Source: Roseateles sp.
Lineage (GTDB): Bacteria; Pseudomonadota; Gammaproteobacteria; Burkholderiales; Burkholderiaceae_C
Length of the DNA: 64,000 nucleotides
NCBI GenBank assembly: GCA_016790285.1
Contig: JAEUPJ010000072.1
Location: 62,001 to 126,000, forward strand
Direction of reading: 5' to 3'
Shown in pieces: positions 52,562-64,000 of the stretch; the stretch's first letter is position 1, and the number at the start of each line of letters is the position of its first letter. The position numbers and the translations under genes were made by a program. Below the pieces are notes generated by a model. That model did no database searches, had not been told where the DNA came from, and worked only from the letters and a program-made list of their open reading frames with translations.

Positions 52562-53104
52562 ATGCCCATCGCCGACTGGTTCTCACCCGCCCAACTCTTC
52601 GGCTACGTCGCCTTCGTGCTCGGCGTCGGCTGCTTCCTGCAGACCGACGACCGGCGCTTCAAGTGGTTCATGGCGGGCGAGTGCGTGGCCTACGTGGCGC
52701 ACTTCGCGCTGCTGGGCAACCCGACGGCGGTGGCCAGCTCGCTCATCTCCATGACGCGCTCGCTCCTGTCGCTGCGCACGCGCTCGCCCTGGGTGGCCGT
52801 GGCGGTGGTGGCCGCCAACATCGGCTTCGGGCTGGCCATCGCGCGCCAGCCCAGCGACTGGCTGCCGCTCACCGCCTCGTGCCTGGGCACCATCGCCCTG
52901 TTCACACTGCAGGGCGTGCCGATGCGGCTGCTGATGCTGTGCGGCACGGGGCTGTGGATCGCCAACAACGTGATCGCCGGGTCGATCGGCGGCACGGCGC
53001 TGGAGATCGTCATCGCGGTCATCAACCTGACGACGATCGCCCGCATGGTCAGGGCGGGCCGGGCTCAGCCGGCCGGTGCGCTCAACGATTCGTCGAGTAG
53101 TTGA
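52562..53104 (+). CDS. YgjV-family inner-membrane protein
   Basis: A 180-residue protein with about five membrane helices. The start MPIADWFSPAQLFGYVAFVLGV and the segment GGTALEIVIAVINLTTIARM are as in the YgjV family, whose role is not known. The 3' end overlaps the convergent MBL-fold gene by 23 bases. Confidence 0.82.
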   Translation: MPIADWFSPAQLFGYVAFVLGVGCFLQTDDRRFKWFMAGECVAYVAHFALLGNPTAVASSLISMTRSLLSLRTRSPWVAVAVVAANIGFGLAIARQPSDWLPLTASCLGTIALFTLQGVPMRLLMLCGTGLWIANNVIAGSIGGTALEIVIAVINLTTIARMVRAGRAQPAGALNDSSSS

Positions 53105-54011
53105 CCGGGAACCAGTCGTAGCCCTTGCCGTCGGCACGCAGGCGGCCGATGCCGGGGAAGCTGACGTGGGTCACCGCCACGTAGTAGCCGTCTTTGGCCG
53201 CCGCGGCATAGGCGGCCTCGCGCGCGGGGCGGGCGGTCTTGGGGTCGGAGTCGAACTGCACGGTCACTGTCGGGTCGGGGAACTGCACGGCCGCGACGTG
53301 CATCAGGTCGCCCCAGAACATCATCTTCTGGCCCTTGCTCTCGGCCACGTAGTTGGTGTGGCCGGGCGTGTGGCCGTAGGCCGGGAAGGCTTTCACGCCG
53401 GGCACGATCTCCACGCCGTCCTTGCTGCCATCAAACGGCTTGAAGCGGCCGGTGTCGGCAAAGCCCTTGACCAGCGCGGCCACGGCCTTGGCGCCGTCGC
53501 CACCCTTGGCGACCTGCTCGGGCGCCAGCCAGAAGTCGCTGTCGCGCTTGTCGATGCGCAGCGTGGCGTTGGGGAAGACGGTGCTGGATGCGCCGCCGAT
53601 GTGGTCGCCGTGCATGTGGGTGATGACGATCTCGTCGACCTGCTCGGGCTTGTAGCCCGCCGCCTGCAGGTTGGCCAGCACGCGCCCGGCCGTCGGGCCG
53701 AAGAGGCCGGCGGTGCCGGTGTCCACGAGCACGACCTTGGCGCCGGTGTTCACGAGGTAGGCGTTCACCGAGGTCTCCAGCGGCACGCCGAGGTAGGCAT
53801 GCTGCAGCGCGCGCAGCGTGTTGGCGGGGGGCTGCTGCAGCAGCTTGTCCACCGGCAGGTCGATGGTGCCGTCGGACAGGGCGGTGATCTCGAAGTCGCC
53901 CAGCTGCACGCGGTACCAGCCTGGCGCCTGACCCTTGAGCTGCGGGCCGGCGGCCAGCGCGGGAATGGCCAGGGCGGTGGCGAGGACGGCGGGAAGCAGG
54001 CGCTTGAGCAT
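53082..54011 (-). CDS. Exported MBL-fold metallohydrolase
   Basis: A 309-residue protein with a signal peptide (ending near ALAAGPQ). The metal-binding motif is THMHGDHIGG, with a later GHTPGHTNYV and GDLMHV supplying further His and Asp. The domain resembles lactonase or hydrolase members of the MBL superfamily. ATG at 54009-54011. It is divergent from the TonB-dependent receptor, across the intergenic region that carries the sigma54 promoter and upstream element, so it may process the receptor's ligand in the periplasm. The substrate is not predicted. Confidence 0.88.
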   Translation of the reverse strand: MLKRLLPAVLATALAIPALAAGPQLKGQAPGWYRVQLGDFEITALSDGTIDLPVDKLLQQPPANTLRALQHAYLGVPLETSVNAYLVNTGAKVVLVDTGTAGLFGPTAGRVLANLQAAGYKPEQVDEIVITHMHGDHIGGASSTVFPNATLRIDKRDSDFWLAPEQVAKGGDGAKAVAALVKGFADTGRFKPFDGSKDGVEIVPGVKAFPAYGHTPGHTNYVAESKGQKMMFWGDLMHVAAVQFPDPTVTVQFDSDPKTARPAREAAYAAAAKDGYYVAVTHVSFPGIGRLRADGKGYDWFPVNYSTNR

Positions 54012-54140
54012 GGCGGGTCTCCGGGGGTTGGGATGAGGCGGCGCAGGATAGCGGCGTGCTGGCCTCCTTGCAGCCCCACGGGCACTTGTCCGGGAAGCGG
54101 ACAGTGCACGGCGCGTCCGTTGACTGGTTTCCAGACAGCG

Positions 54141-54168
54141 ATCGGGCGCCAGACGGCCAAAACGCGGG
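54141..54168. promoter_or_regulatory. Shared upstream element before the receptor gene (putative activator site)
   Basis: ATCGGGCGCCAGACGG then CCAAAACGCGGG. The same element occurs at 58156-58184 upstream of the importer operon. It starts 72 bases before the -24 GG here, 71 bases there. The first part contains the palindrome GGCGCC. It is the best candidate binding site for the activator encoded at 56610. Confidence 0.6.
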
Positions 54169-54211
54169 TTAGCTCGCAAGGGTTTGCCAGAGGTTTGCCC
54201 CGTGTTGGCGC

Positions 54212-54227
54212 GGGCATGGGTCTTGCG
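54212..54227 (+). promoter_or_regulatory. Sigma54 (-24/-12) promoter of the TonB receptor
   Basis: GGGCATGGGTCTTGCG fits the GG-N10-GC rule: -24 GG at 54213-54214, -12 GC at 54225-54226. The region between matches the TGGCACG-N4-TTGC consensus well. Transcription would start near 54237, about 36 bases before the ATG. Confidence 0.7.
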
Positions 54228-54272
54228 CTGAAGGGGGCTGGCACCCCAAGACATCAAACCAGGAGACAAGCC

Positions 54273-56471
54273 ATGCCCCGACGCCTACCGGCGCCTTCGC
54301 CGCTGCATTTCGCCATCCTCGCCGCACTGGCCTCACTGGCCGGCGCGCTGCCCGCCCAGGCCCAGCAGGCCGCCTCGGCCGAGACGGCGGTGACGACGCT
54401 GGACACCGTCAAGGTCACGGCGCGCAAGCGGGAGGAGTCGCTGCAGGACGTGCCGGTGGCCGTCACGGCGCTCACCGCCGAGCAGCTGGACAAGCTCGCC
54501 ATCAAGGACCTCGGTGACCTGCAGGGCCAGGTGCCCAATCTGACCATCTACGCCGCGCGCGGCAGCAACACCACCATCACCACCTTCATCCGCGGCGTGG
54601 GCCAGGCCGACCCGCTGTGGGGCGTGGACCCGGGCGTGGGCATCTACTTCGACGACGTCTACATCGCCCGCCCGCAGGGCGCGCTGCTGGACGTGTACGA
54701 CGTGCAACGCGTGGAGGTGCTGCGCGGCCCGCAGGGCACGCTGTACGGCAAGAACACCATCGGCGGCGCGGTGAAGTACGTCTCCAAGCCCCTGCCCACC
54801 GCCACCGAGGGCGCCGTGACGCTGGCCGTCGGCAACTACGGCCAGGTCAACGCCAAGGCCGGCGTGGGCACGGCGGTGAGCGACGGCCAGCTGCGCTTTC
54901 GCATCGCCGGCGCCAGCCTGAACCGCGACGGCTACGGCCGCAACCTCACCGACGGCGGCCCCGTGAGCGACCAGGCCACCACGAGCGGGCGGCTGTCGAT
55001 GGGCTGGTTCCCGACGGGGTCCAGCTTCAACGCCCAGGTGTCGGTGGACCGCACCGAGGACGCCTCGCACATGCGCGGCTTCCAGCGCCTGAACGTCAAC
55101 CCCTTCGACCCGCTCAAGACGCCCGCCACCACGGGCCGCTACGACGTCGCCACCGGCATGCCCAATGCCAACCGCACGACGAGCGAGGGCGAGTCGCTGA
55201 CGCTGAACTGGGGCCTCACGAGCGACTGGAGCCTGAAGTACGTCCTGGCCCACCGCGCCTCCGACACCAACACGTCCATCGACTTCGACGGCCTGCCCAA
55301 CAAGATCGCCGACGTGCGAGCGGAGTACCACGACAGCTCGCAAAGCCACGAGCTGCAGGCCGCCTACGAGGGCCAGAACAGCTCGGGCGTGATCGGCCTG
55401 TACTACTTCGACGGCCGCGCCGGCGGCACGGTGCGCAACAACTTCTTCAACGCGAGCTTCGGCACCACCAACGGCCAGGTCTATACCGAAGGCAAGGCCG
55501 TGTTCGGCGACTGGAGCTGGCGCCTGACGCCGCAGTTCAGCGTCAGCACCGGCCTGCGCTACACCGACGAGACCAAGCGCGCCGTCGTGCTCAACCAGGC
55601 CTTTGCCAACGACAGCTTCAGCGGCACCCCCATCGCCGTGCCGGCCAACTTCGACAACAGCCGCTCGGTGACGAACACCTCGCCGCGCGTGTCCCTCGAA
55701 TACAAGGCCAGCAAGGAGATCCGCCTCTACACGACCGCCTCGCGCGGCTTCAAGAGCGGCGGCTACAACATCCGCGCCAACACGCTGGCCTTCCCGACGT
55801 CCAGCAAACCCTTCGCCGACGAGAAGCTCGACTCGCTGGAGCTCGGGGCCAAGATGGTGCTGGACGGCGGGCGGCTGGAGCTCAACACCGCCGTTTTCCA
55901 CAACAAGTACAAGAACGTGCAGCTCTCCGTGTTCACGAGCTACACCCAGGCCAACGGCCAGCCGGGCTTCTTCGGCGACTTCACCAACGCCGGCAAGGCC
56001 ACGGTGCAGGGCGCCGAGGTCGAGTTCCTGTGGATGCCGAGCACGGCCTGGCGCCTGAGCGGCAACCTGGCCACACTGCACGCCAAGTACGACGAGTACA
56101 TCGACCGCGGCGTCAACGTGGCCGACCAGAAGAAGTTCACCAACACGCCCAAGTTCCAGGCGAGCGCGAACATCGAGCACAACCTGCCGCTGGCCGTGGG
56201 CACGCTGCGCTCGCGCCTGGGCCTGTCCCACCGCAGCAAGGTCTACCCGACGACCGACCTGTCGGAGTCGCTGGCCCAGGATGCCTACACCCTCGTCAAC
56301 GCGGGCCTGATCTGGGAGAAGGACAGCCGCCTGAGCTTCTTCCTGCAGGGCAGCAACCTCACCAACAAGGCCTACAAGACCGACGGCTACAACATCGCCG
56401 CACTCGGCGTGCTCAACGCCTACTACGGCCCGCCGCGCACCTTCACCATCGGTGGCACCTACAAGTTCTGA
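54273..56471 (+). CDS. TonB-dependent outer-membrane receptor
   Basis: A 732-residue receptor with a signal peptide (ending near PAQAQQAAS). The plug includes VKVTARKREESLQDVPVAVTAL (TonB-box/N-terminal plug signature) and RVEVLRGPQGTLYGKNTIGGAV. The beta-barrel ends in the expected C-terminal strand TFTIGGTYKF. Such receptors import iron complexes, cobalamin or carbon compounds; the ligand is not readable here. Its leader AGGAGACAAGCC sits directly before ATG. It is preceded by a sigma54 promoter and lies upstream of the sigma54 activator gene, so it is likely part of that regulon. Confidence 0.95.
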   Translation: MPRRLPAPSPLHFAILAALASLAGALPAQAQQAASAETAVTTLDTVKVTARKREESLQDVPVAVTALTAEQLDKLAIKDLGDLQGQVPNLTIYAARGSNTTITTFIRGVGQADPLWGVDPGVGIYFDDVYIARPQGALLDVYDVQRVEVLRGPQGTLYGKNTIGGAVKYVSKPLPTATEGAVTLAVGNYGQVNAKAGVGTAVSDGQLRFRIAGASLNRDGYGRNLTDGGPVSDQATTSGRLSMGWFPTGSSFNAQVSVDRTEDASHMRGFQRLNVNPFDPLKTPATTGRYDVATGMPNANRTTSEGESLTLNWGLTSDWSLKYVLAHRASDTNTSIDFDGLPNKIADVRAEYHDSSQSHELQAAYEGQNSSGVIGLYYFDGRAGGTVRNNFFNASFGTTNGQVYTEGKAVFGDWSWRLTPQFSVSTGLRYTDETKRAVVLNQAFANDSFSGTPIAVPANFDNSRSVTNTSPRVSLEYKASKEIRLYTTASRGFKSGGYNIRANTLAFPTSSKPFADEKLDSLELGAKMVLDGGRLELNTAVFHNKYKNVQLSVFTSYTQANGQPGFFGDFTNAGKATVQGAEVEFLWMPSTAWRLSGNLATLHAKYDEYIDRGVNVADQKKFTNTPKFQASANIEHNLPLAVGTLRSRLGLSHRSKVYPTTDLSESLAQDAYTLVNAGLIWEKDSRLSFFLQGSNLTNKAYKTDGYNIAALGVLNAYYGPPRTFTIGGTYKF

Positions 56472-56550
56472 GGGCGGTGCCCTCGCGGCCTGGCGGGTCG
56501 CGGCCTGCCCTGCGACGAGCCGGGGCCACGCGTGAGTGCGCCCCTCATGC

Positions 56551-56574
56551 GTAGGGCGGGCCTGGACCCGCCAC
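56551..56574. repeat. REP-like GC-rich palindrome
   Basis: GTAGGGCGGG, CCTGGA loop, then CCCGCC: stem GGCGGG (56555-56560) with CCCGCC (56567-56572). The GTAGGGCGGG start resembles a dispersed palindrome seen in several Proteobacteria. It lies between the receptor and the regulator gene and may also act as a weak terminator. Confidence 0.4.
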
Positions 56575-56609
56575 CACCGGCCGCGCTCCCGCGGTACATT
56601 GCCGCGGCC

Positions 56610-58130
56610 ATGCCCCTGTCCAAAAACCAGACACCCGCCGCCCTCGACATCCCGCAGGACGTCGACGGCCTGCTGCGCCTGGCCGCGCAGTCGATGTTCG
56701 ACGTGCTGGCCCGGTCCACCGAAGGGATGATGGTCGTGGACCGCAACCACCGCGTGGTGTGGATCAGCGACGGCTACAAGCGCTTCCTGCCGGCGCTCGG
56801 GTTCAACGACGAGCATGAGTTCGTCGGCAAGCGCGTCGAGGACGTCGTGCCCAACACGCAGATGCTGCAGGTGCTGGCCACCGGCAAGCCGGTGCTGGTG
56901 GACCTGCTCACCAACAAGGCGGGCACCTTCCTCGTGAGCCGGCTGCCGCTGCGGAACGACGCCGGCGAGGTGATCGGCGCGCTGGGCCTCGTGCTGCTGG
57001 ATCACCCCGAGACGACCATGCAGCCGCTGATCCAGAAGTTCGGCCGGCTGCAGCAGGAGCTGGAGGACACCCGCCGCCAGCTCGCCGCGCAGCGCCGCCC
57101 GAAGTACACGATCGCGAGCTTCATCGGCGCGAGCCCCGCGGCGCTGGAGGTCAAGCGCCAGGCGCGGCGCGTGGCCCAGACCGACTCCACCGTGCTGCTG
57201 CTGGGGGAAACGGGCACCGGCAAGGAGCTGCTCGCCCACGCCATCCACTCCGCGTCGCGCCGCGCGCACCGGCCGCTGGTGAGCGTCAACATCGCCGCGG
57301 TGCCCGAGACGCTGCTGGAGGCGGAGTTCTTCGGCGTCGCCCCGGGCGCCTACACGGGGGCGGAGCGCAAGGGGCGCGACGGCAAGTTCAAGCTCGCGGA
57401 CGGCGGCACGCTCTTCCTCGACGAGATCGGCGACATGCCGCTGGCGCTGCAGAGCAAGCTGCTGCGCGTGCTGCAGGAGCAGGAGGTGGAGCCGCTGGGC
57501 TCCAACACCGTGCTGCGCGTGGACGTGCGGGTGATCGCGGCCACCAGCCGCGACCTGGCTGCGATGGTGGCGGCCGGGAGCTTTCGCGCCGACCTCTACT
57601 ACCGCCTCAACGTGCTGCCCATCCGCGTGCCGGCGCTGCGCGAGCGGCTGGACGACATCGAGGCCCTGGCCGAAGCGTTGGGCGAAGACATCGCCCGGCG
57701 CAGCGGCATGCCGCAGAAACTGCTGAGCCCCGACGCGCTGGAGTGGCTGGCCCGCCAGGCCTGGCCCGGCAACATCCGCGAACTGCGCAACACGCTGGAG
57801 CAGGTGAGCCTGATGAGCGACGACATGCAGCTGACCGCGGCTCATTTCCAGGGCGGCGCGGCGCTGCCGGTCGCCGCCGAGCCGCCCGCGCCCGAGGCGG
57901 CGCCCTTGCCGGCGCCGGCGCCCACGGTCACCACGGCCCAGGCTGTCGCCCCGCTGCCCGAACTCATCGAGGCCCTGGAGCGCGACGCCATCCGCCGCGC
58001 CCTGCAGGCCACCGGCGGCAACCGCATGGCTGCCGCCCGGCTGCTGCAGATCTCGCGCGCGTCGCTGTACGAGCGGCTGGCGAGGTGGCCGGAGCTGGAA
58101 GCGAAAGTCCAGGTTTCAGGCGACGCCTGA
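56610..58130 (+). CDS. PAS-containing sigma54-dependent activator
   Basis: A 506-residue regulator. The N-terminal sensor is PAS-like ([20 protein letters not shown]). The central AAA+ domain has Walker A GETGTGKE at about 199-206, the sigma54-contact loop GAYTGA at 246-251 (Phe to Tyr in the usual GAFTGA), [10 protein letters not shown], and [13 protein letters not shown]. The C-terminal Fis-type HTH is [21 protein letters not shown]. There is no receiver domain, so it should sense a small molecule directly. It lies between two operons with sigma54 promoters and a shared upstream element, making it their likely activator. ATG 56610 is used. Confidence 0.95.
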
Positions 58131-58155
58131 AATTCAGACACTCAGCGTCGCAAGA

Positions 58156-58184
58156 ATCGAGCGCTAACCGCCCAAAACCTCGGG
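58156..58184. promoter_or_regulatory. Shared upstream element before the importer operon (putative activator site)
   Basis: ATCGAGCGCTAACCGC then CCAAAACCTCGGG. It matches the element at 54141-54168 in 11 of the first 16 positions, in all of CCAAAAC and in CGGG. It starts 71 bases before the -24 GG. The palindrome AGCGCT lies where the other copy has GGCGCC. Confidence 0.6.
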
Positions 58185-58225
58185 ACAACCCGCACGAAAA
58201 CCGTCCCCGGCGCCCCTTCCCCGCC

Positions 58226-58241
58226 GGGCACGACCCTTGCA
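58226..58241 (+). promoter_or_regulatory. Sigma54 (-24/-12) promoter of the importer operon
   Basis: GGGCACGACCCTTGCA matches TGGCACG-N4-TTGCW almost exactly: -24 GG at 58227-58228, -12 GC at 58239-58240, exact GG-N10-GC. Transcription would start near 58251, about 50 bases before the ATG. Confidence 0.8.
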
Positions 58242-58300
58242 AAAAGGGAAGACACCGTCTGCCGACAGAGCAGACCTGACGAACTTCAGGAGACAAGCCC

Positions 58301-59500
58301 ATGCGCTTCATCACGCGTCGCTGCGCCCTCGCCGCGGTCACCCTCGCGGCGGCCCTGCCTGGCCCGACCCAGGCCGCCGGCAACGAGATCCGCATCGCCC
58401 ACGTCTACAGCAAGACCGGCCCGCTGGAGGCCTACGGCAAGCAGACCCAGATCGGCCTGATGATGGGCCTGGACTACGCCACCGGCGGCACCATGATGGT
58501 GGGCGGCAGGAAGCTCGTCGTCATCGAGAAGGACGACCAGGGCAAGCCTGATGTGGGCAAGAGCCTGCTGGCCGCGGCCTATGGCGACGACAAGGCTGAC
58601 ATCGCGGTGGGCCCGTCATCCAGCGGCGTGGCGCTGGCCATGCTGCCCGTGGCCGAGGAGTACAAGAAGATCCTGCTGGTGGAGCCGGCCGTCGCCGACT
58701 CCATCACCGGCGACAAGTGGAACAAGTACATCTTCCGCACCGGCCGCAACTCCTCGCAGGACGCCATCGGCAACGCCGTGGCCTCCGACATCCCCGGGCT
58801 GAACATCGGCGTGCTCGCGCAGGACTACGCCTTCGGCCGCGACGCCGTGAAGGCCTACAAGGAAGCGCTCAAGAAGGCGAAGATCGTCCACGAGGAATAC
58901 CTGCCCACCCAGACCACCGACTTCACCGCGGGCATCCAGCGCCTGGTGGACGCGCTGAAAGACAAGCCCGGCCCCAAGGTCATCGCCGTCGTGTGGGCCG
59001 GTGCCACGACGCCGTTCGGCGCGCTCGCGGCGCTGGACCTGCAAAAGCGCTACGGCATCGCCGTGGGTTCGGGCGGCAACATCCTGCCGGCCATGACGGC
59101 CTACAAGCAGTTCCCCGGCATGGAAGGCGCAACCTACTACTACTTCGGCATTCCGAAGAACCCGGTCAACGAGTGGCTCGTGGCCAACCACTACAAGCAG
59201 TTCAAGCAGCCGCCGGACTTCTTCACCGCCGGCGGCATGAGCGCCGGCATCGCGCTGGTGGAGGCCCTCAAGAAGACGGGCGGTGACACCGCCACCAACA
59301 AGCTCATCAAGACCATGGAAGGCATGAGCTTCGAGACGCCCAAGGGCAAGATGACCTTCCGCGCGGAAGACCACCAGGCGATGCAGTCGATGTACCACTT
59401 CCGCATCAAGGTGGACCCCGCCTTCCCGTGGGGCGTGCCGGAGCTGGTGCGGGAGATCAAGCCCGAGGAAATGGCGGTCCCCATCCGCAACAAGCGCTGA
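58301..59500 (+). CDS. LivK-like periplasmic substrate-binding protein
   Basis: A 399-residue protein with a signal peptide (ending near GPTQAAGN). The ligand domain begins EIRIAHVYSKTGPLEAYGKQ, with VGPSSSGVALAMLPVAEEY and DYAFGRDAVKAY, as in the branched-chain amino-acid/aromatic family 6 binding proteins. The ligand is likely a small carboxylate or aromatic compound rather than an amino acid, but this is not proven. It is the first gene of the importer operon. The AGGAGACAAGCC leader precedes the ATG, as for the TonB receptor. Confidence 0.92.
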   Translation: MRFITRRCALAAVTLAAALPGPTQAAGNEIRIAHVYSKTGPLEAYGKQTQIGLMMGLDYATGGTMMVGGRKLVVIEKDDQGKPDVGKSLLAAAYGDDKADIAVGPSSSGVALAMLPVAEEYKKILLVEPAVADSITGDKWNKYIFRTGRNSSQDAIGNAVASDIPGLNIGVLAQDYAFGRDAVKAYKEALKKAKIVHEEYLPTQTTDFTAGIQRLVDALKDKPGPKVIAVVWAGATTPFGALAALDLQKRYGIAVGSGGNILPAMTAYKQFPGMEGATYYYFGIPKNPVNEWLVANHYKQFKQPPDFFTAGGMSAGIALVEALKKTGGDTATNKLIKTMEGMSFETPKGKMTFRAEDHQAMQSMYHFRIKVDPAFPWGVPELVREIKPEEMAVPIRNKR

Positions 59501-59526
59501 AGGCCCTCTCGACCGCTGAAGAAACA

Positions 59527-59609
59527 AGCCACAGAGACACAGAGGCACAGAGAGACTGCGCAGCCGCCGAGAGAAGCCCGCTTCTCTGTGCCTCTGTGCC
59601 TCTGTGGCT
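59527..59609. repeat. CACAGAG palindromic repeat, copy 2
   Basis: AGCCACAGAGACACAGAGG (59527-59545) begins the left arm, and CTTCTCTGTG ... CTGTGGCT (59581-59609) is the right arm. It is the same element as copy 1 at 27353-27428, with a different loop. It lies in the gap between the binding-protein gene and the first ATPase gene, so it is transcribed within the operon. Confidence 0.75.
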
Positions 59610-59622
59610 GTGTTGCAGGCCC

Positions 59623-60381
59623 TTGCCCGACAAGCCCGTGCTCGAAACCAAGAACCTCACCATCCGCTTCGGTGGCCATGTGGCCGTCGATGGCGTGAGC
59701 TGTGCCTTCCAGCCCGGCACGCTCACCGCCATCGTCGGCCCCAACGGCGCGGGCAAGACGACCTACTTCAACCTCATCTCCGGCCAGCTGCCCGCCAGCA
59801 GCGGCGAGGTGTGGCTGGACGGCGAGAACCTCACCGCGCTCGGCGCCCCGCAGCGCACGCGCCGGGGCCTGGGCCGCGCCTTCCAGCTCACGCAGCTGTT
59901 CGCCCACCTCACGGTGCTCGAGAACGTGCGCCTGGCCGTGCAGGCGCGCCGGGGCCTGGGCCTGAAGCTGCTGTCGGTGTGGCTGTCGCACCGCGACCTC
60001 ATCACCGAGGCCGAAGCCATCCTCAAGCGCGTGCGGCTGGACCACCGCGCCACCGACTTTGCCGCCAGCCTCCCCCACGGCGACCAGCGCAAGCTGGAAG
60101 TGGCCATGCTGATTGCGCTCGACCCCAAGGTGTACCTCTTCGACGAGCCCACCGCCGGCATGAGCGTGGACGAGGTGCCCGTGGTGCTGGACCTGATCCG
60201 CGCGCTCAAGGCCGAGAAGAAGCACACGCTGCTGCTGGTGGAGCACAAGATGGACGTCGTGCGCGAGCTGGCCGACCGCATCATCGTGCTGCACCAGGGC
60301 AAGCTCGTCGCGGACGGCGACCCCGCCACCGTCATCGCCTCGCCCATCGTGCAAGAGGCTTACCTCGGGGTGGCCGCATGA
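59623..60381 (+). CDS. LivG-like ABC transporter ATPase
   Basis: A 252-residue ATPase. Walker A GPNGAGKTT, Q-loop region RAFQLTQLF, a signature-like SLPHGDQRKLEVAMLIAL (the usual LSGGQ is altered), Walker B VYLFDEPTAG and the H-loop VEHKMD. There is no good ATG at the N-terminus: TTG 59623 (PDKPVLETKNL) is used, with GTG 59638 as an alternative. The upstream leader is the CACAGAG repeat. Its stop overlaps the next gene by four bases. Confidence 0.9.
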   Translation: MPDKPVLETKNLTIRFGGHVAVDGVSCAFQPGTLTAIVGPNGAGKTTYFNLISGQLPASSGEVWLDGENLTALGAPQRTRRGLGRAFQLTQLFAHLTVLENVRLAVQARRGLGLKLLSVWLSHRDLITEAEAILKRVRLDHRATDFAASLPHGDQRKLEVAMLIALDPKVYLFDEPTAGMSVDEVPVVLDLIRALKAEKKHTLLLVEHKMDVVRELADRIIVLHQGKLVADGDPATVIASPIVQEAYLGVAA

Positions 60382-61109
60382 ACCTGCTGGAGTTGCACGG
60401 CGTTCACACCCACGTCGGGGCGTATCACATCCTGCACGGCGTGGACCTGGCCGTGCCCGTGGGCGAGGTGACCATGCTGCTGGGCCGCAACGGCGCGGGC
60501 AAGACCAGCACGCTGCGCACGCTGATGGGGTTATGGACGGCCAGCGCCGGCACCGTGACCTTCAAGGGCGAGGACATCACGAAGCTCGCCACACCCGACA
60601 TCGCCGCCCGCGGCATCGCCTACGTGCCCGAGACCATGGGCATCTTCGGCGAGCTGACGGTGGCCGAGAACCTGCTGCTGGCGGCGCGCTCGGCCAAGCG
60701 GCTGGCGGACCTGGACGCGCAGCGGCTGGACTGGCTCTTCGGCCTGTTCCCGGCGTTGAAGACCTTCTGGACCCGCCCGGCGGGCAAGTTGAGCGGCGGG
60801 CAGAAGCAGATGGTGGCCATCGCCCGCGCGCTGGTGGAGCCACGAGAGTTGCTGGTCATCGACGAGCCAAGCAAGGGCCTGGCCCCGGCGATCGTGGCGA
60901 ACCTGATCTCGGCGCTGCGGGAGCTGAAGGCGACGCGCACGACGGTGCTGCTGGTGGAGCAGAACTTTCGCGTGGCCGCTGAGTTGGGCGATTCGGTCGC
61001 CGTGATGGACGACGGCCGGGTGGTGCATCGGGGCGCCATGCGCGAATTGATCGAGGACGCGTCGTTGCAGCAGCGGTTGCTGGGGTTGTCGTTGGGGGCG
61101 CATCAGTGA
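60378..61109 (+). CDS. LivF-like ABC transporter ATPase
   Basis: A 243-residue ATPase: Walker A GRNGAGKTS, signature LSGGQKQMVAIARAL, Walker B LLVIDEPSKGLAP, H-loop VEQNFR. Second ATPase of a branched-chain type importer, coupled to the first by ATGA. It is followed by an unusual 445-base gap before the permease genes. Confidence 0.95.
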   Translation: MNLLELHGVHTHVGAYHILHGVDLAVPVGEVTMLLGRNGAGKTSTLRTLMGLWTASAGTVTFKGEDITKLATPDIAARGIAYVPETMGIFGELTVAENLLLAARSAKRLADLDAQRLDWLFGLFPALKTFWTRPAGKLSGGQKQMVAIARALVEPRELLVIDEPSKGLAPAIVANLISALRELKATRTTVLLVEQNFRVAAELGDSVAVMDDGRVVHRGAMRELIEDASLQQRLLGLSLGAHQ

Positions 61110-61554
61110 CTGCACTCGGGTCTTGGATAGGGGCTTTTGCTGAAAGCCTCAGCGCCTCACGAGTTGAAGTCAAGCGCCGCTCGGGCGGCGCGTCGGCCCG
61201 GCGTGGTGCCTTCACTGGTGAGCCCGGCGTGCAGCCGGCGTTAACCGGCGCGAAGGTGCGATGGATGGTGCCCGTGACAGAGACAGCAGCGAGAGCGCAG
61301 CGGCTCGCTTCGCCGCAGAGGCTGAGCGCGAGTTTTCGCGCGAGAGCCTTCGCCCAAGCCCGCTGGCGTGCGGTTGGCGCCTCTCTTTTGGTGACTTTTC
61401 TCTGGCAAGACAGAGAAAAGTTATTCGCCCGCCGGGGCGAACTCCCGGCACGGTGCACCGAGCTGCAAAGGCTCCACGCAAAAGCATGCGAACGACCCGC
61501 GCGACGAGTCGTCAGCCTCTCAGCACGAGCAACCGAACAACACCCCGGCCGCGC
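61110..61554. repeat. 445-base intergenic region inside the importer operon, with repeat-like DNA
   Basis: No convincing gene is present; short frames here have repeat-like protein content. It contains a perfect 11-bp hairpin, ACTTTTCTCTG (61394-61404) and CAGAGAAAAGT (61411-61421) with a six-base loop, and Gly/Arg-rich runs typical of dispersed intergenic elements in Burkholderiales. It separates livF-like from livH-like genes in an otherwise tight operon. The hairpin could stop or slow transcription, or be an inserted element. Confidence 0.6.
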
Positions 61555-62529
61555 ATGAAGCTCGACCCCAAACCCCTCGCGCTCCTCGCAGCGCTCATCC
61601 TCCTGGCCCTGCCCCTCACCGGCAGCCCCAGCACCTGGCTCAACCTGACCCTGGCCGGCGTCGCCATGGGCCTGATCATCTTCGTCATCGCCTCCGGCCT
61701 CACGCTCGTCTTCGGCCTGATGGACGTGCTGAACTTCGGCCACGGCGTGTTCATCGCGCTGGGCGCATTCATGGCCACGACCGTGCTGGCCGCACTCGCC
61801 CCGTGGGCCACAAGCCCGGACGTCGCCGCCAACCTCGCCGCGCTGGCCGCCGCTTGTCTCGCCGGCATGGCCGTCGCCGCAGCGGTGGGCGTGGTGTTCG
61901 AGCGGGTGCTCGTGCGGCCCGTCTACGGCCAGCACCTCAAGCAGATCCTCATCACCATGGGCGGCATGATCATCGGCGAGGAGCTGATCAAGGCGACCTG
62001 GGGTGCGCAGATGATCCCGCTGGAGCTGCCGCAGACGCTGCGCGGCATCTTCGTCCTCGGCGACGTGGCGGTGGAGAAGTTCCGCGTGCTGGCCATGGTC
62101 GTCGGCGTGGCGGTGCTCGTGGGCCTGTTGCTCGTGCTCAACCGCACCAAGATCGGCCTGCTCATCCGCGCCGGCGTGCAGGACCGCGAGATGGTGGAGG
62201 CCCTGGGCTACCGTGTGCGGCGCCTGTTCGTGGGCGTGTTCGTCGCGGGCTCGGCGCTCGCCGGCCTGGGCGGCGTGCTCTGGGGCCTGGTGCAGCAGGG
62301 CGTCACGCCGCAGATCGGCGCACAGGTGAACCTGCTGCTCTTCATCGTCATCATCATCGGCGGACTGGGCTCCACGGTGGGCTGCCTGGTGGGCGCGCTG
62401 CTGGTGGGGCTGGTGGCCAACTACGTCGGCTTCCTGGCGCCGAAGGCCGCGCTGTTCTCGAACATCGGCCTGATGGTGGCGGTGCTGCTCTGGCGCCCGC
62501 AGGGCCTCTACCCGGTGGGAGCCAAGTGA
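61555..62529 (+). CDS. LivH-like ABC transporter permease
   Basis: A 324-residue permease with about eight to nine helices. Motifs are SGLTLVFGLMDVLNFGHGVFIALGAF and AGLGGVLWG, then IVIIIGGLGSTVGCLVGAL. ATG 61555 is used because the upstream part of the frame is repeat DNA. Its TGA overlaps the next ATG by one base. Confidence 0.95.
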   Translation: MKLDPKPLALLAALILLALPLTGSPSTWLNLTLAGVAMGLIIFVIASGLTLVFGLMDVLNFGHGVFIALGAFMATTVLAALAPWATSPDVAANLAALAAACLAGMAVAAAVGVVFERVLVRPVYGQHLKQILITMGGMIIGEELIKATWGAQMIPLELPQTLRGIFVLGDVAVEKFRVLAMVVGVAVLVGLLLVLNRTKIGLLIRAGVQDREMVEALGYRVRRLFVGVFVAGSALAGLGGVLWGLVQQGVTPQIGAQVNLLLFIVIIIGGLGSTVGCLVGALLVGLVANYVGFLAPKAALFSNIGLMVAVLLWRPQGLYPVGAK

Positions 62530-63611
62530 TGCGCGCCCTGCTTTCGCACGACCTGCCGCGCAGCCGCATCCTGGCCGGCCTGCTCATCGCCTGCTTCGTC
62601 GGGCTGCTGGGTGCGCCGTTCATCTTCCCCGGCACGCAGGCGCTGAACGTCGCGGCCAAGATCCTCGTCTTCATCCTGCTCGTGGCCAGCTACGACCTGC
62701 TGCTGGGCTACACCGGCATCGTCAGCTTCGCGCACACGATGTTCGTCGGCATCGGCGCCTACGGCATCGCCATCGCGTCCACGCGGCTGGGGGCCGACTG
62801 GGCGTCGCTCGCCATCGGCTTCGCCGCGGCCCTGGGCTTGAGCGCCGTGCTGGCGCTGGGCATGGGGCTGGCCAGCCTGCGCGTGAAGGCCATCTTCTTC
62901 GCAATGATCACGCTGGCCGTGGCGTCGGCCTTCATGACGCTGGCGTCCCAACTGAGCGACATCACCGGCGGCGAGGACGGCCTGAACTTCCAGCTGCCTT
63001 CAGCGCTGCGGCCTTCCACCGAGTTCATGGACGAGCCGGTGCTGGGCGTGATGCTGGACGGCCGGCTGCTGACCTACTACCTGCTCTTCGTCGCCGTCAC
63101 GTTGCTGATCGCGCTGCTGCTGCGCATCGTGAATTCGCCCTTCGGCCGCGTGCTGCAGGCCATCCGCGAAAACGAGTTCCGCGCCGAGGCCATCGGCTAC
63201 CGCACGGTCGTCTACCGCACGGGCGCCAACGTCATTGCCGCGCTGCTGGCCTGCTGCGGCGGCGCGCTGCTGGCGCTGTGGCTGCGCTACACCGGGCCGG
63301 AGACGGCCATGAGCATGGAGATCATGCTGGACCTGCTGCTCATCGTCGTCATCGGCGGCATGGGCACGGTCTACGGCGCCGTCATCGGCAGCGTGCTCTT
63401 CATCGTGGCGCAGAACTACCTGCAGGCCCTGCTCAAGTCGGCGGGCAGCCTCGTGGAAGGCGTGCCGGTGCTGAGCACGCTGGTCTCGCCCGACCGCTGG
63501 CTGCTGTGGCTGGGGCTGCTGTTCGTGCTGGCCGTGTATCACTTCCCCGGCGGCATCGTGGGCCGGCTGCGGCTGGCCGCGTGGACGCGCGGCCGCAGGA
63601 GCCCGCCATGA
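62529..63611 (+). CDS. LivM-like ABC transporter permease
   Basis: A 360-residue permease with about ten helices. Motifs are YDLLLGYTGIVSFAHTMFVGIGAY, AIRENEFRAEAIGYRTVVYR and LLLIVVIGGMGTVYGAVIGS. The C-terminus is basic. The next ORF overlaps by four bases (ATGA), so the hydrolase is coupled to the importer. Confidence 0.95.
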   Translation: MRALLSHDLPRSRILAGLLIACFVGLLGAPFIFPGTQALNVAAKILVFILLVASYDLLLGYTGIVSFAHTMFVGIGAYGIAIASTRLGADWASLAIGFAAALGLSAVLALGMGLASLRVKAIFFAMITLAVASAFMTLASQLSDITGGEDGLNFQLPSALRPSTEFMDEPVLGVMLDGRLLTYYLLFVAVTLLIALLLRIVNSPFGRVLQAIRENEFRAEAIGYRTVVYRTGANVIAALLACCGGALLALWLRYTGPETAMSMEIMLDLLLIVVIGGMGTVYGAVIGSVLFIVAQNYLQALLKSAGSLVEGVPVLSTLVSPDRWLLWLGLLFVLAVYHFPGGIVGRLRLAAWTRGRRSPP

Positions 63612-64000
63612 GATCGCGCTACGTCACCTGCCTGGGCCGCGAGCTGCACGTCACCGAGTGGGGCGACGCGAGCGCGCCGACCATCGTCGCCTGGCACGGC
63701 CTGGCCCGCAGCGGTCGCGACTTCGACGACTTCGCCGCGGCGCTCAGCGCCCGCTGGCACGTCGTTTGCCCCGACACGCTCGGCCGCGGCCTGTCGCAGT
63801 GGGCCGTCGACCCCGCCAAGGAGTACTGCCTGTCGTTCTACGTGGAGCAAGCCGAAGCGCTGCTGGACGCTCTCGACCTGGACAAGGTGCACTGGGTGGG
63901 CACGTCCATGGGCGGCGCCATCGGCACGCTGGGTGCGGCGAGCCGCCTGCGCGGGCGCATCCGCCGCCTGGTGCTCAACGACAACGGCCCCGAACTCGCG
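63608..64000 (+). CDS. Alpha/beta hydrolase (3' end cut by the window)
   Basis: The first 131 residues of an alpha/beta hydrolase. Motifs are TIVAWHGLARSGRDFDDFA (oxyanion-hole strand), CPDTLGRGLS, and the nucleophile elbow GTSMGGAIGTLGAA. No signal peptide, so it is cytoplasmic. It is translationally coupled to the LivM-like permease and probably hydrolyses the compound the importer delivers. The end of the gene lies beyond the window. Confidence 0.9.
   Translation, partial: MRSRYVTCLGRELHVTEWGDASAPTIVAWHGLARSGRDFDDFAAALSARWHVVCPDTLGRGLSQWAVDPAKEYCLSFYVEQAEALLDALDLDKVHWVGTSMGGAIGTLGAASRLRGRIRRLVLNDNGPELA

Follow-up and report, generated by a model that had tools for sequence, protein, structure and literature searches.

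A predicted sigma54 regulon with a palindromic operator links an importer and a TonB receptor in Roseateles

The window analysed here is a 64,000-nucleotide stretch of a Roseateles sp. genome (assembly GCA_016790285.1, contig JAEUPJ010000072.1, positions 62,001–126,000), in which a sigma54-type activator gene lies between two operons that share a candidate operator, a 17-bp palindrome. The activator gene (56610–58130; like all genes in this paragraph on the plus strand; ATG start presumed) encodes PAS, sigma54-AAA and Fis-type helix–turn–helix (HTH) domains by Pfam. It is preceded by a gene for a TonB-dependent receptor (54273–56471; Pfam plug and barrel) and followed by an ATP-binding cassette (ABC) importer operon in the order livK–livG–livF–livH–livM, after which comes an alpha/beta hydrolase gene. 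livK encodes the periplasmic binding protein (58301–59500; Peripla_BP_6), livG and livF the ATPases (59494–61109; Pfam) and livH and livM the permeases (61261–63611); livM was assigned by Pfam and livH by position and a conserved reading frame, the true livH start probably lying further inside this stretch. The hydrolase gene begins at 63612 and runs through 64000 beyond the window end, with Abhydrolase_1 recognized on the continued contig.

Both operons are preceded by plus-strand −24/−12 promoters of the form GG-N10-GC: the 16-mer GGGCATGGGTCTTGCG at 54212–54227 before the TonB receptor gene, and GGGCACGACCCTTGCA at 58226–58241 before livK. These two promoters, and a PAS–sigma54 activator between the operons, had been put forward in an original prediction made from the sequence letters, and they are indeed present. 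The livK promoter scores 15.5 and is one of just two sites on both window strands to reach at least that value. The TonB promoter scores 13.5, which 55 window sites attain, so the case for it rests on its conservation in relatives.

Of 200 genomes sampled from the family, 102 have an activator ortholog (E ≤ 1e−100). The neighbourhoods of 60 of these, mostly the most similar ones, were retrieved with long flanks, and in 58 of the 60 the activator gene is linked to livK. A −24/−12 box scoring at least 13.5 lies within 150 bp in 58 of the 60 livK upstream regions, compared with 5.0% of random stretches, and one scoring at least 14.5 in 51 of them (0.4% of random stretches).

A 17-bp palindrome upstream of the promoters

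Upstream of livK, a 17-bp palindrome with the consensus TGTCTGAAATTCAGACA recurs across these genomes. Two sets of livK upstream regions with no member in common, one of 24 and one of 33, were searched de novo on the assumption of one site per sequence and with no consensus supplied. Both returned TGTCTGAAATTCAGACA; the log-likelihoods were 264 and 246, compared with 33–45 for three shuffled sets each, and the shuffled controls were given 40 starts against 120. Each model, applied to the set on which it had not been built, placed a 13-bit site in all 24 regions of the one and in 22 of the 33 of the other, where shuffles averaged 0.40 and 0.05. A first de novo run with another objective had given an AT-rich motif of low information that transferred weakly; it was superseded by the one-site-per-sequence model with more starts. 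A seeded model was also trained on 57 of the 60 livK upstream regions, all from outside the window's genus, the window, L040 and L041 being excluded. It placed a 12-bit site in 50 of the 57 (shuffle mean 0.4), a count taken on its own training set.

All three models single out the same top three places in the window, which the original prediction had overlooked. The first in rank, CGCCTGAAATTCAGACA (58124–58140, plus strand; 22.3 bits in the seeded model), lies 102 bp before the livK −24 box and contains the stop codon of the activator gene; a weak copy, AGTCCAGGTTTCAGGCG (58106–58122, plus strand), matches 13 of 17 consensus positions and lies 120 bp before the box. The second, TGTCCAAAAACCAGACA (56617–56633, plus strand; 20.5 bits), is a predicted autoregulatory site, lying at the start of the activator gene. 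The third, TGACTGGTTTCCAGACA (54121–54137, plus strand; 19.7 bits), is a predicted enhancer 91 bp before the TonB −24 box and occurs also in L041 and L156. The next place in the window scores 13.5 bits; a weaker palindrome 125 bp before the TonB −24 box, TGTCCGGGAAGCGGACA (54087–54103, plus strand), reaches 11.4 bits in the seeded model and ranks sixth.

The palindrome extends to named relatives, including Hydrogenophaga borbori and Paucibacter: among the matches listed, 9 of 10 livK upstream regions carry it at 18 bits or more. These named loci were 80 kept from at least 594 matches, of which 31 were scanned and the 10 with livK scored, some possibly from the same species as training-set genomes. 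Within the window's own genome, two non-exhaustive pattern searches for further regulon members turned up nothing else scoring above 19 bits; the next-best site (18.7 bits; L118) has no good −24/−12 site nearby. A strict pattern, run on two genomes of the same genus, recovered the TonB site both times (at 18.5 and 11.7 bits) but neither their livK nor their activator-start sites; its other places scored 9.6–16.6 bits.

In total, 117 sites of at least 13 bits lie upstream of livK, 22 of them at 67 or 68 bp from the −24 box, 22 at 90–92 bp and 16 at 109–111 bp. This tight spacing is found mainly in the clade L077–L099, and elsewhere copies lie at about 68–192 bp, often 18 or 19 apart. The window's relatives have the livK palindrome at −90 or −91, with L040 and L041 having one at −109 as well (below 13 bits in L040). 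An 11-bp block is present in the window at livK and absent from L040, L041 and L156; we infer that it would shift the palindrome pair by about one helical turn and so keep it on the same face of the DNA.

A further sequence, RGKGTTTGCACY, keeps a constant distance in livK and TonB promoters of L042–L075 (for example L044, L050 and L053), where 20 of 64 have it beginning exactly 26 bp ahead of the T of TGGCAC; in random 120-bp stretches, 10 of 12 matches occur in 1.5% and 9 of 12 in 14.5%.

The activator and its predicted regulon

The activator scores 230.7 bits with Pfam Sigma54_activat and 44.4 bits with HTH_8 at its C terminus; its PAS region, at about 36–128, scores 23.0 bits with PAS_4 against a cut-off of 23.1, and its GAYTGA loop is invariant in 15 of 15 aligned orthologs, the window's included. 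Enhancer-binding proteins of the NtrC, NifA and NorR type use upstream activating sites. The window activator resembles them in its sigma54-AAA domain, GAYTGA loop and Fis-type HTH, and in the palindromes, repeated as upstream activating sites would be, ahead of a −24/−12 promoter. It is unlike members of that class in having its own operator sequence and its own target operons, and it falls far below every cut-off of the named NCBIfam families shown, the best being PrdR (352/795 bits). By its sequence features the locus appears to be of a known class, in which a PAS-type enhancer-binding protein works through upstream activating sites. A search of titles and the starts of abstracts in the open-licence literature, a scope that most subscription papers fall outside, found no paper on the activator–importer pair. 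A sigma54 activator is also named in a paper on a Bordetella small RNA (PMC11722255).

The activator is the likely binder of the palindrome, because the palindrome tracks the activator–livK pair, the 20 homolog loci without this livK show no tandem array, and in a subset a further site lies at the activator start. The 20 homolog loci L167–L186 (36–53% identity, without this livK) contain no tandem array among the matches listed; the Pseudomonas homologs among them, L170–L175 (49–52%), lack this livK inside the fetched stretch. Eight of 61 activator genes (those of the window, L041, L047, L049, L051, L056, L067 and L077) have a palindrome of at least 12 bits close to their start, compared with about 1.3% of random stretches, and L156 likewise has a palindrome there. 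Autoregulation of the activator is therefore likely in a subset of genomes.

With linkage and promoters conserved and an operator-like palindrome shared, it is very probable that the product of the intervening activator gene controls both operons. We propose, with a probability of roughly 80%, a local regulon in which the PAS-type enhancer-binding protein would bind palindromes of the form TGTCTGAAATTCAGACA, usually in tandem, upstream of the two −24/−12 promoters and, once bound, would remodel sigma54–RNA polymerase at both. This would switch on the livKGFHM importer together with the alpha/beta hydrolase and, in the window's lineage and a few others, the TonB outer-membrane receptor; across the loci we count 8 such receptors, 7 of them at 65% or more and one a 26% match in L048. 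Through the palindrome at the start of its gene the activator would probably also control its own synthesis, most probably by repression, and its PAS domain may sense the imported compound. Two operons under one sigma54 activator had been the core of the original prediction, which the promoters, the conserved linkage and a common palindrome support well; the site that it named is not supported.

Several observations weigh against this regulon. Seven of the 57 training regions are without a strong site, and the seeded count comes from the model's own training set; L157 reaches only 10.4 bits in its livK region, and that of the same-genus L040 has no 13-bit site. Fixed spacing (60 of the 117 sites) is chiefly a property of one clade, the remaining sites lying at 83–192 bp and one of them downstream. 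The activator-start site is limited to the 8 of 61 cases, and three of the 20 homolog loci do have a single palindrome, which in one of them (L181) stands ahead of a good −24/−12 match. Finally, a degenerate palindrome pattern matches five places in the whole genome, three of them at this locus, and the reversed control holds as many matches as the genome, so that only the clustering of three of the five is informative.

In place of a weak element, the palindrome offers a testable predicted operator that is conserved over dozens of genomes, by which the targets of an uncharacterised activator matched in 102 of the 200 sampled genomes become predictable.

Cargo of the importer

The importer is like the branched-chain-amino-acid-type (Liv) ABC importers in gene set and domains. 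It is unlike Liv importers generally in having a sigma54-type promoter, a linked activator and hydrolases after the operon, and LivK reaches 58/477 bits with the branched-chain amino acid binding-protein model. Of the 60 loci, 52 have an alpha/beta hydrolase gene. In 15 of the 60, the next queried gene after livM, 0–291 bp away, encodes a 3-hydroxybutyrate-oligomer hydrolase (PF10605), an identity checked by Pfam in one of the 15 (1078 bits). A Cache-domain chemoreceptor gene occurs in seven of the 60 loci, between activator and livK in six. These hydrolases and the chemoreceptor hint that the importer takes up a small ester or an oligomer of hydroxyacids. As its cargo we tentatively suggest, at odds somewhat short of even, a short hydroxyacid ester or oligomer, with oligomers of 3-hydroxybutyrate as one example.

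There is about an even chance that the importer instead carries aromatic acids or another non-ester compound under the same regulation. Rhodopseudomonas palustris, for instance, has some ABC binding proteins with benzoate-type acids as ligands (PMC3223731). The closest solved chains to LivK, 3n0x (E = 1.6e−161) and 3nnd (E = 2.5e−154), are both listed without ligand, which leaves room for such a cargo, as does the finding that the window's own genome gave no oligomer-hydrolase match, in a search in which the control genomes gave none either. Neither the oligomer hydrolase nor residues 1–129 of the alpha/beta hydrolase gave a match in the PDB. What speaks against an aromatic or other non-ester cargo is the hydrolase genes, of the alpha/beta type in most loci and of the oligomer type following livM in a quarter.

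A regulator of parallel function is described in Pseudomonas aeruginosa (PMC8694187): HbcR (PA2005), which is sigma54-dependent and regulates (R)-3-hydroxybutyrate catabolism. Compared by that description, it resembles the window activator in its single N-terminal PAS domain (17–123 there, about 36–128 here) and its sigma54 dependence, and the two may possibly respond to the same compound class. A doubtful extension would be a widespread and so far unnamed Burkholderiales sigma54 regulon for scavenging polyester (3-hydroxybutyrate) oligomers. Its PAS activator would sense the product, its tandem palindromes would drive an ABC importer with oligomer hydrolases, and in some lineages, including the window's, a TonB receptor would take oligomers through the outer membrane; the further sequence at a fixed 26 bp from the −24 box would then stand for another input. 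The linked hydrolase suggests a class of cargo through which sigma54 control and the consumption of bioplastic oligomers might be connected.

Alternative operators and promoters

It is improbable that the palindrome belongs to a different regulator, with the activator working from other places or recognizing some other sequence. Some activator–livK loci do lack a strong site, and binding by the activator is a prediction from the DNA. Another regulator would nonetheless have to account for a palindrome that stands upstream of the −24/−12 promoters of the linked operon and, in a subset, at the activator's own start, and for the missing tandem arrays in the 20 homolog loci without this livK.

The original prediction had proposed a different site, a 28-bp element whose copies (54141–54168 and 58156–58184, plus strand) do occur at both promoters: 23-mer matches begin at 54141 and 58156, 72 and 71 bases ahead of the −24 GG. 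It had argued that this matching spacing marks a functional site rather than chance, which the numbers do not bear out. Markov shuffles of both promoters attain the best ungapped segment score of 13 (+1/−1) 8 times in 400, and so do 72 of 592 pairs of 150-bp stretches drawn at random from the window. In the 5.88-Mb genome the 22-base core occurs without mismatch at these two places only, the pattern having been derived from them, and with two or three mismatches at five further places against one in the reversed control. The element as a whole is not conserved in the three close relatives L040, L041 and L156: its 5′ half is unconserved at either promoter, and their livK regions are without the 11-bp block that adjoins the livK copy. 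Among 66 other LivK and TonB upstream regions, three attain 16 of 23 matches, compared with 3.6 in shuffles.

Some weak constraint on the element may exist, since the mean best match in those 66 regions is slightly higher than in shuffles (14.12 against 13.80; standard deviation of means 0.12), a TonB promoter of the same genus is the best match at 18 of 23, and CCAAAAC is partly retained at livK in relatives. A segment between the palindrome and the TonB promoter, GGGTTAGCTCGCAAGGGTTTGC (54166–54187), is near-invariant in four aligned relatives and better kept than the element. On balance we rejected the element as operator, a role that we consider very unlikely for it given its weak standing against chance, its poor conservation and the different palindrome just upstream of it at each promoter (54121–54137 and 58124–58140). 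The likely operator is TGTCTGAAATTCAGACA.

The shared leader that had been noted beside the ATG of both genes is real: AGGAGACAAGCC stands ahead of both start codons, at 54261–54272 and 58288–58299. It is a general ribosome-binding leader of this genome, in which AGGAGACA-N2-7-ATG occurs 60 times (none in the reversed control) and AGGAGACAAGC-N0-3-ATG five times (none in the control); it therefore says little about co-regulation, and as a sign of it we set the leader aside as unspecific. livK still keeps GGAGAC within 60 bp of its extrapolated start in 53 of 60 loci; the motif is near the start of the activator gene in 0 of 61 cases, livG in 0 of 55, livF in 1 of 41, livH in 0 of 54 and livM in 2 of 54. 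A leader proposed for a second livK, AGGAGACAGACCATG, was withdrawn: it had been inferred from the translation and is missing among the listed genome leader matches.

That the operons are read from sigma70 promoters and the −24/−12 matches are decorative is hardly credible, for despite the commonplace TonB score the livK box is kept in nearly all regions and a sigma54-type activator adjoins the operons.

Neighbouring genes

A gene for a hydrolase of the metallo-β-lactamase (MBL) fold lies at 53082–54011 on the minus strand, divergent from the TonB receptor gene and with the upstream region in common. Its top NCBIfam model is the AidB N-acyl homoserine lactonase, at only 174/360 bits.

Malonate-type genes lie near the activator in L047, L051, L055, L061 and others; over 61 neighbourhoods, there were 16 with an AMP-binding ligase, 14 with a TctC binding protein, 13 with a malonyl-CoA decarboxylase and 10 with a regulator judged GntR-like by eye. 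In L008 (6512–11390, past the window end), a second livG–livF–livK–livH–livM-like set follows the alpha/beta hydrolase gene, as it does in L040 and L041. The window's own genome (G000) has two matches to the sigma54 DNA-binding domain, at C33:10804–11262 and C39:98579–99052, and hence two copies of rpoN.

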